This document shows positions 27,755-30,786 of a DNA stretch of 57,863 nucleotides, one piece after another (positions within the stretch are counted from its first letter, which is position 1; every line of letters begins with the position of its first letter). The DNA comes from Planctomycetota bacterium (GTDB lineage: Bacteria > Planctomycetota > Phycisphaerae > SM23-33). A program made the translations under genes and the position numbers. Location: the NCBI GenBank assembly GCA_030635145.1, contig DAOVZK010000009.1:1-57863 (forward strand). Reading direction: 5' to 3'. Under the pieces are notes generated by a model that saw only the letters and a list, made by a program, of their open reading frames with translations, did not search any database and was not told the origin of the DNA.

Positions 27755-28054
27755 ATGTCTGTTCATATTAAAATTGACAAGCTTAAACTCGCCGAGTTTT
27801 GCCGGATGAACCATATCCATCAGCTGTCGCTGTTTGGGTCTGTTTTGCGTGATGACTTTCGTGCAGAGAGTGACGTGGATGTGCTGGTTGAATTTGACAT
27901 TGACCACGTCCCAGGTTTGTTTGGCATGGCGCGTTTGGAAACTCAGTTGTCCGAACTGTTCGGCAGAAAAGTCGATCTACGTACGCCAGAAGACCTAAGC
28001 CGCTATTTTCGCACCGAGGTAATCGCCAACGCAGAGGTGCAGTATGCAGCGTGA
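27755..28054 (+). CDS. mntA: MntA-type minimal nucleotidyltransferase antitoxin
   Basis: 99-aa MNT-domain protein. The catalytic signature GS-X10-DxD is complete: G28 S29 and D40-V-D42, within GSVLRDDF and SDVDVLVEF. In characterised type VII pairs such an enzyme adenylylates a tyrosine in HepT and so neutralises it. The downstream hepT overlaps by 11 nt, the usual coupled arrangement. GGGAG lies 9 nt before the ATG. Confidence 0.88.
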
Positions 28055-28382
28055 TGATTGTATCCGTTTGCACCACATGCTCGATGCTGCCCGCGATGCC
28101 GTGGGATTTGCACGAGACAAAAAGAGGGAGGGCCTCGATTCTGACCGCCAGTTGGTAATGGCGGTTGTAAAATGTGTCGAAATTATCGGCGAAGCTGCCA
28201 GCCAGGTTTCAGCGGAAACACGCGATACGATTCCCAGCCTTCCGTGGGGTGACATGATAAACATGCGGCATAGGCTTGTTCACGCTTATTATGACATTAA
28301 CCTGAACGTCGTTTGGGCCACGATTCAGGAAGACCTTCCATCGCTCATCAAGGCCCTTGAAGCAATTCCAGATTTGAATTAG
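28044..28382 (+). CDS. hepT: HepT-like (DUF86) HEPN toxin
   Basis: 112-aa HEPN ribonuclease-type toxin. The RX4HXY motif is intact: R75-H76RLV-H80-A-Y82. Tyr82 is the residue modified by MntA in known systems. Helical, with the [15 protein letters not shown] and [18 protein letters not shown] segments typical of DUF86. All key residues of both partners are present, so the pair is probably functional. Confidence 0.88.
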
Positions 28383-28469: not shown

Positions 28470-28497
28470 TTGACAACTCTTTGTGCGGGCATAGAAT
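28470..28497 (+). promoter_or_regulatory. Strong sigma70-type promoter
   Basis: TTGACA (28470-28475), 16-bp spacer, TAGAAT (28492-28497). The -35 matches perfectly and the -10 has one mismatch. No coding gene follows for 600 bp; the transcript would start near 28505 and run through a highly structured stretch. Confidence 0.65.
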
Positions 28498-28504
28498 AGC
28501 TCGT

Positions 28505-28832
28505 TCCGATTCTTGTAATTGGTAGATAGCGTCTTTCGTTCGCATGGAGCGACCCCGGTATGATGTTAAAAAACCGCGGGAATGGGCAGGTGAGGTTGCG
28601 GCCGCCTGCTTAGGCTTCCGGACGAAACCACAGCCGCATTTTTTGCATAGAGGCAGTTTCAAAATCTGTTTTCGTCGCGAGGCCGAAAAGCCCGTCTGCG
28701 GTGGAAACACGTTTTTGAAAAAGCCTCGACGCGAGGTTTTGCATCTGGTAGCGAGAAAGACGCCGCCGCCAGCTGCCTGCGATATAGAAAAGTCCATAGG
28801 CCACACGGTTTGGTAATTTGTGGTGTTTTTTT
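28505..28832 (+). ncRNA. Candidate structured non-coding RNA, family unknown
   Basis: Bounded by a good promoter and a terminator-like hairpin. A long-range stem closes the core: GCGTCTTTC (28529-28537) pairs with GAAAGACGC (28755-28763), extended by CGC (28541-28543) with GCG (28751-28753). Inside are CCCCGGT (28553-28559) with ACCG-c-GGG (28573-28580), GCAGG (28586-28590) with CCTGC (28605-28609), and a GGC-CGAAAA-GCC loop near 28681. I compared it from memory with tmRNA, RNase P RNA, SRP RNA and 6S RNA and saw none of their conserved cores. ORFs exist on both strands (28544-28816 plus, 28447-28806 minus) but resemble nothing known to me. Confidence 0.45.
28801..28832 (+). terminator. Rho-independent terminator-like hairpin
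   Basis: CCACA (28801-28805) pairs with TGTGG (28819-28823) across a 13-nt loop and is followed closely by seven T (28826-28832). The stem is short, so strength is uncertain. Confidence 0.45.
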
Positions 28833-28959: not shown

Positions 28960-29031
28960 TACCCGGTGGTGTAATCGGCAACACAGAAGTTTTTGGTACT
29001 TCCGTTCCAGGTTCGAGTCCTGGCCGGGTAA
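28960..29031 (+). tRNA. tRNA-Gln (anticodon UUG)
   Basis: Full cloverleaf by hand: acceptor TACCCGG/CCGGGTA (7 bp), D-arm GTGT/ACAC, anticodon stem GAAGT/ACTTC with loop TTTTGGT (anticodon TTG, reading CAA), 4-nt variable loop, T-arm CCAGG-TTCGAGT-CCTGG, discriminator A. 72 nt. CCA is not encoded. Confidence 0.95.
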
Positions 29032-30061: not shown

Positions 30062-30156
30062 GTCGGCTCACGGGAAACTTTGCAGGTCTTTTGCACGATA
30101 AACATTTTGCGTTAACTTGCCCTTAGGGGCCAATGGTTAAACAGGAGCACTTCGCG

Positions 30157-30786
30157 ATGGCGACAATGAAGGCAGCGAAACGAACAGAAGTAGGTACCAA
30201 CAAGGTAAAGCAGCTGAGAAAAGCTGGGAATATTCCGGGCATTATTTACGGCCACGGAATTGACCCTCAGGCTGTGACGATTTCCGAGCACGAAGTCGAA
30301 CTGGCCATGCAGCACGGCGATCGTCTGCTCGAGCTTGACGTCGATGGCGAAATCGAAAACGTGTTGATCAAGGCCCTGCAGTACGACACTTTCGGTCAGA
30401 TTATTTTGCACGTTGACTTTAATCGTGTAGATCTTGACGAACGCGTCGAAGTCACAGCCACCATCACTTTGACCGGTACACCGCAGGGTGTCAAGGACGG
30501 TGGAGTGTTGCAGCAGTCAGTGTCAAGTATTCACATCGAATGCCCCGTGCAGAACATTCCCGAAGAAATCAAGATTATGGTCACGGAAATGAAGATGGAC
30601 GACCGCATGAATCTTGGCGACATCGAGCTGCCCGAAGGCATTACGCTGCTTGACGACGCCGAAGCCTTGCTTTGCAACGTTCACGAGTTGGCAGAGGAAG
30701 AAGAAGCAACAACCGAGGAAGGCGAAGACGCCGACGCCCCAGAAGTTATCGGTGAGCGAAACGTCGAATCGGACACTGAAGAGTAA
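30157..30786 (+). CDS. rplY: 50S ribosomal protein L25/general stress protein Ctc
   Basis: 5S rRNA-binding ribosomal protein of the long Ctc (TL5-like) form: N-terminal L25 domain (RKAGNIPGIIYG) plus C-terminal beta domain. The ATG at 30157 (209 aa) follows AGGAG by 9 nt; an upstream ATG at 30133 lies before that site. The last about 30 residues are strongly acidic (ELAEEEEATTEEGEDAD). It follows prs and ends 3 bp before pth. Confidence 0.95.
   Translation: MATMKAAKRTEVGTNKVKQLRKAGNIPGIIYGHGIDPQAVTISEHEVELAMQHGDRLLELDVDGEIENVLIKALQYDTFGQIILHVDFNRVDLDERVEVTATITLTGTPQGVKDGGVLQQSVSSIHIECPVQNIPEEIKIMVTEMKMDDRMNLGDIELPEGITLLDDAEALLCNVHELAEEEEATTEEGEDADAPEVIGERNVESDTEE

Follow-up and report, generated by a model that had tools for sequence, protein, structure and literature searches.

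A structured RNA is encoded at positions 28525–28655 (+ strand) of the window, which is the whole 57,863-nt stretch of DNA analysed here and comes from a draft genome of 2.38 Mb. It lies upstream of a tRNA-Gln gene. We regard it as very nearly certain that this RNA is genuine and undescribed, meaning absent from Rfam 15 and from the searchable literature. The first-pass annotation had proposed an undescribed structured ncRNA between hepT and tRNA-Gln, and this is supported by covariation and by the absence of an Rfam match. The interval it gave, 28470–28832, contains the RNA but also includes a repeat-derived insertion, the conserved core being only 28525–28655; and it missed the pseudoknot, the constant link to tRNA-Gln, the insertion, and the spread of the RNA over many families in the class. 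The features of the locus are as follows.

28470–28497, + strand: promoter TTGACA-16-TAGAAT, 11/12 consensus, position conserved in homologues; drives the RNA and, by inference, tRNA-Gln
28525–28655, + strand: conserved RNA core, full-length match to covariance model R1 (107 bits)
28529–28537, + strand: P0 5′ strand GCGTCTTTC, pairs with 28755–28763; support from close relatives only
28535–28542, + strand: P1a 5′ strand TTCGTTCG, pairs with 28619–28626; 96.7% of cells paired, 8/8 pairs compensatory
28546–28550, + strand: P1b 5′ strand GGAGC, after the 3-nt bulge CAT, pairs with 28614–28618; 97.8% paired, with A-U to G-C changes
28553–28580, + strand: P2 hairpin, variable in sequence and length; 5/5 pairs compensatory, 86.6% paired
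28584–28591, + strand: P3 5′ strand GGGCAGGT, pairs with 28604–28611; 6/8 pairs compensatory, 96.8% paired
28595–28602, + strand: pseudoknot 5′ strand GTTGCGGC, in the P3 loop, pairs with 28633–28640; covariation
28604–28611, + strand: P3 3′ strand GCCTGCTT; covariation
28614–28626, + strand: P1b 3′ strand GCTTC, followed directly by P1a 3′ strand CGGACGAA; covariation
28633–28640, + strand: pseudoknot 3′ strand GCCGCATT; 7/8 positions pair with 28595–28602 in the window copy
about 28648–28750 (right boundary approximate), no strand assigned: insertion separating the pseudoknot from the P0 3′ strand, absent from homologues
28755–28763, + strand: P0 3′ strand GAAAGACGC, completing a perfect 9-bp long-range stem
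28960–29031, + strand: tRNA-Gln (TTG), the next gene after the RNA in every homologue; no second such match occurs in this genome
29126–30061, + strand: prs, ribose-phosphate pyrophosphokinase, in this genome the first protein gene of the operon; many relatives have glmU ahead of it
30133–30786, + strand: rplY, ribosomal protein L25/TL5

The fold is an interrupted long stem, P1a/P1b, which encloses the hairpins P2 and P3, and the loop of P3 forms a pseudoknot with a strand located 3′ of P1. The general layout of the 5′ half is P1a (6–9 bp), a 3-nt bulge (mostly CAC, CAA or CAU), P1b (GGRGY/GCYUC) and a variable P2. The 3′ half consists of P3 (8 bp, with an 11–15-nt loop containing the pseudoknot strand), 2 nt (AG or AA), P1b′, P1a′, an optional P4 and the pseudoknot 3′ strand. 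P4 is a hairpin between P1a′ and the pseudoknot 3′ strand, and is seen in the f10, f14, f17, f21, f23, f25, f26 group. In the window, the conserved helices all lie within 28535–28640.

The covariation check on homologues suggested by the first-pass annotation was strongly positive. Across 55 sequences, 93.4% of cells are paired, compared to 31–49% with slid partners, and compensatory changes occur at 27 of the 34 pairs (0/500 shuffles); the covariation score is 0.59, against 0.21 for shuffled sequences. In the same sequences the pseudoknot alone is 88% paired, with 30 double-change cells against 8 in shuffles, and it covaries even though its pairs lie outside the pair set of the aligning model. 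Phylogeny is not taken into account by such shuffle counts; safer measures are the slid control and the number of pairs changed on both sides. A separate alignment (A7) of 25 distant leaders was made with MAFFT from sequence only, and gives 96.1% paired cells and compensatory changes at 19/27 pairs, with the mild bias that this set was chosen and trimmed by a pairing descriptor. Here the pseudoknot is 96% paired, with 19 double-change cells compared to 5 in shuffles.

Other structural tests were more permissive. A loose structural descriptor applied to the leaders is too permissive on its own, since 15% of shuffles reach a score of 24 and it is clean only at 26 or above, and the structural claims therefore rest on the covariance model and alignment A7. 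An initial pseudoknot test without anchoring was likewise permissive, with 31/41 observed against 12% for shuffled and 22% for cross-family comparisons. Single-sequence folding of 28505–28832 indicates modest stability (z = −1.9) and does not reproduce the conserved fold; a cleaner homologue, L027, has z = −0.3, though its MFE structure shows P1, P2 and P3, and five distant homologues range from 0.1 to −3.8. Folding energy is not evidence for an RNA here.

A switch in which the pseudoknot strand pairs instead with the P2 region is not general, reaching p ≤ 0.05 in 4/34 and 1/55. In two loci of family f21 (L108 and L109), a P2 strand GCYGUGAAA is complementary over 9–11 nt to the P3-loop strand of the pseudoknot, which is suggestive but not general to the class.

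The long-range closing stem noticed in the first pass is present as a perfect 9-bp pairing between 28529–28537 and 28755–28763, and is retained as GGCGUC/GACGCC in most close relatives. As a class-wide feature, this P0 outer stem was rejected: it is found in 29/55 sequences compared to 27% by chance, with support confined to close relatives. The insertion of about 100 nt makes the RNA longer in the window than in its relatives. Its left approximately 40 nt have 90% identity to the end of an inverted-repeat (MITE-like) element of about 170 nt, and its inverted arms (28645–28673 and 28704–28732) account for some of the three or more internal stems described previously, the conserved helices being instead P1a/P1b, P2, P3 and the pseudoknot. 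The MITE-like repeat has terminal inverted repeats TAGAAGCTGTTTCAAAACCT ... AGGTTTTGAAACAGCTTCTA and occurs as three near-full copies elsewhere in the genome (G000:C56:33029, C47:6626 and C44:14148) and also in the relative L018, while a diverged end of it lies inside the RNA gene of the window.

It could be argued that the locus is not an RNA gene at all, but either a small protein gene or GC-rich spacer DNA that folds by chance. The window does contain two ORFs, of 90 and 119 codons, which overlap each other, and the single-sequence folding energy is unremarkable. However, none of the six frames is kept open across the homologues (23–34 of 55 in each), the core length modulo 3 is spread over all three classes, and neither ORF has a Pfam match. 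Together with the compensatory changes at 27/34 pairs, the frame tests refute this reading, to which we attach a negligible probability. The earlier statement that there is no recognisable gene thus holds, and coding conservation, which had been named as a possible refutation of the RNA, was not seen.

Nor does the RNA belong to a family in Rfam 15 (4227 families, gathering threshold): the window and 20 homologue loci give tRNA matches only, the match in the window being tRNA-Gln. A relaxed scan (E ≤ 10) of the window, L027 and L072 gave nothing significant on the leader RNA, so that the covariance-model hit proposed as a possible refutation did not appear even at this threshold. RNase P RNA is matched elsewhere in the genome (RF00010; G000:C29, 240 bits) and not on the leader RNA. 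A tmRNA match above cut-off is likewise located elsewhere (RF00023; G000:C5, 163 bits), and ARAGORN finds none in the window; SRP RNA (RF00169) is on G000:C15. For 6S RNA there is no Rfam match (RF00013), and the pseudoknotted fold conserved here is unlike the long hairpin with a central bubble that marks 6S RNA. The motif was not found in literature searches that included the text of large papers on RNA discovery (PMC11109978, PMC8632094 and PMC2864571), with subscription journals, preprints and supplements mostly outside their scope.

A DNA similarity search finds relatives from the same family, with the strongest matches covering approximately 28519–28645. When these are aligned, the element is each time upstream of tRNA-Gln and downstream of a TTGACA promoter. 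Model R1 finds the RNA in 31/35 genomes of the family, including 19/19 of those of high quality, with one copy each, and in 55/397 genomes across the class Phycisphaerae. Out of 56 matches in the class, 55 are directly upstream of tRNA-Gln(UUG) on the same strand. The other (L087, a second match in G114) was rejected as a chance match inside uvrA. In a sample of the phylum there were two further matches, both from the same class and both upstream of tRNA-Gln; model R2 gave few matches in this sample. Because the matches were found by the RNA alone, the link to tRNA-Gln is independent support, even for weak matches.

To follow the wider spread, a tRNA pattern was used to collect a further 60 tRNA-Gln leaders from the class. 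The same layout is present in most of the sampled families. It is clear in f9, f10, f13–f15, f17, f20–f23, f25 and f26, partly from model matches and partly by inspection, and was recognized by inspection only in f11, f16, f24 and f27. The spread beyond model matches is less certain than the 55-genome core. The long tRNA-Gln leaders of f5, f8 and f19 could not be matched to the RNA, and twenty tRNA-Gln leaders from other classes contain no such RNA. Families f12 and f3 also lack it; their tRNA-Gln comes immediately after ilvD. This arrangement, with tRNA-Gln directly behind ilvD and before glmU/prs and without the RNA, was observed at L092–L094 and L153 in these families and at L180 and L181 in another class, and is possibly the older one. 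The absence from ilvD-linked lineages and from the examined leaders of other classes suggests that the RNA goes with a promoter before the tRNA-Gln-(glmU)-prs operon. At one further locus (L107, in G026, a 1.7 Mb draft of family f1), a promoter-like site and tRNA-Gln are kept and the RNA is not recognisable; it may have been reduced or lost in this lineage.

The near-consensus promoter reported in the first pass is confirmed as TTGACA-16-TAGAAT, matching 11/12 positions. Among the 55 homologues, TTGAC is present at the best −35 site in 51, and 42 have a promoter score of at least 9/12, compared to 4% of shuffles. The −10 element ends 11–32 nt upstream of the model start (10th–90th percentile), with a median of 15.5 nt where the promoter reaches that score. 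Directly upstream of the promoter, at 27755–28382, are adjacent nucleotidyltransferase (PF01909) and HepT-like (PF01934) genes, which are a toxin-antitoxin pair of the MntA/HepT type.

Downstream of the RNA and tRNA-Gln, prs or glmU is found in 55/55 genomes, in the order prs, or glmU then prs, followed by rplY. Each family genome has one tRNA-Gln gene in a search allowing up to two mismatches to the Gln-tRNA pattern, and the gene behind the RNA is therefore probably the only one in these genomes. The spacer between RNA and tRNA is often 30–50 nt but ranges from 30 to >300 nt, with neither its sequence nor its junction conserved; in the window it is 305 nt from the model end, the longest seen. 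Since a gap of 30–50 nt is too short for a terminator and a second promoter, we firmly infer that the RNA is co-transcribed with tRNA-Gln. The terminator-like hairpin previously placed at about 28801–28832 was not picked up by a terminator scan of the + strand and has no equivalent in the spacers of homologues, of which 9/55 contain a terminator-like hairpin (3% in shuffles). In genus g49 of family f15 (L076, L083 and L089), the stretch just 3′ of the RNA holds a terminator-like hairpin, GCGUCACG...CGUGRCGC, with a U-rich tract behind it. The 5′ arm of this hairpin overlaps the pseudoknot 3′ strand, in that genus only. The layout is as in transcription attenuators, and the hairpin could be an attenuator.

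The RNA probably forms the 5′ leader of a tRNA-Gln-(glmU)-prs-rplY transcription unit in Phycisphaerae, and we put at about even the chance that it acts in cis. The computed basis is its conservation, single copy and pseudoknotted structure, with a sigma-70-type promoter just upstream and tRNA-Gln directly downstream; the leader position and the conserved, covarying, aptamer-like fold are those of a riboswitch kind of RNA. Cis action is favoured by the unbroken linkage in 55 genomes, the leader position, the absence in ilvD-linked lineages and the hairpin overlap in g49. The RNA would then act during transcription, with the P3-loop pseudoknot forming or not in response to a ligand or protein, for which metabolites around glutamine or PRPP are the natural predicted candidates. 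The state of the pseudoknot would set the amount of tRNA-Gln and prs/glmU transcript that is produced, or that escapes decay, downstream, and RNase P would then cut the leader from the tRNA. Against this, there is no conserved expression platform (9/55 spacers are terminator-like) and the spacer is not conserved, nor does the pseudoknot strand have a general alternative partner in the P2 region. In addition, the target is a tRNA, and we know of no riboswitch precedent with a tRNA gene as target. Some lineages also have the order tRNA-Gln-(glmU)-prs but not the RNA, so that linkage could partly be inherited gene order, and a single copy with wide conservation would also fit a trans-acting RNA.

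Such a trans-acting RNA is the main and a serious rival, with about one third of the probability. It would be a housekeeping or regulatory ncRNA, co-transcribed with tRNA-Gln for convenience and freed by RNase P as a stable RNA of about 150–200 nt that would function away from the operon, together with a protein or another RNA. The single copy in 19/19 high-quality family genomes, the strong promoter, and the compact fold with many conserved unpaired bases would all suit this role, and the RNase P RNA needed for release is present in the genome. However, in 55 genomes the RNA is never away from tRNA-Gln, a link that trans action would not need, and its absence in ilvD-tRNA-Gln lineages is not accompanied by any visible replacement. 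The constant 5′ leader position would also suit an element for the processing or stability of pre-tRNA-Gln that senses nothing, its fold serving only to shield the 5′ terminus of the initial transcript or to offer the tRNA to RNase P. This we consider improbable, because the distance to the tRNA ranges from 30 to >300 nt and the junction is not conserved, tRNA-Gln genes of other classes lack the RNA, and the conserved interior bases and pseudoknot exceed what protection needs. Returning to the cis-acting leader, its boldest form would be a new class of sensor RNA that adjusts the transcription of a tRNA gene, and with it glmU and prs, to the supply of glutamine or PRPP; this is a tentative proposal, on the doubtful side.

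Several known RNAs resemble parts of this picture. RNase P RNA has an outer stem, a second stem and a long-range pairing across it (the order P1-P2-P4), together with an ancient link to tRNA maturation, and the helix order of the leader RNA recalls it. However, RNase P RNA is about 400 nt and the leader RNA core about 120–170 nt, the sequence differs, and a separate RNase P gene is present in the genome, so the leader RNA is not RNase P RNA. It shares pseudoknots and a single copy with tmRNA (RF00023), but lacks the tRNA-like ends and tag reading frame. T-box riboswitches are found upstream of amino-acid-related protein genes and bind tRNA. Both they and our RNA are leader RNAs linked to one tRNA species, but the latter precedes the tRNA gene itself and has no Rfam match. 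The glutamine riboswitches (glnA and Downstream-peptide motifs) are leader RNAs tied to glutamine metabolism (PMC2864571). They control protein genes, many of them of nitrogen metabolism, whereas the present RNA precedes tRNA-Gln and matches nothing in Rfam. ROOL and GOLLD are pseudoknotted RNAs whose function is unknown, often located near tRNA genes (PMC12286853). These are large phage or prophage RNAs near tRNA islands, in contrast to an RNA of about 130 nt in a conserved chromosomal operon with one tRNA.

Novelty would be at the level of the RNA family and its arrangement; the mechanism might still prove to be a familiar one. Class-wide single-copy bacterial RNAs have often proved important, as with RNase P, tmRNA, 6S, OLE and the riboswitches. 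The covariance model and structure make the cis and trans readings directly testable. If the sensor proposal is true, this would be, to our knowledge, the first riboswitch-like element upstream of a tRNA gene. Found with one and the same tRNA gene in all 55 model-positive genomes, the leader RNA would either regulate that gene in cis or be a trans-acting RNA so far overlooked in a phylum that has received little study.
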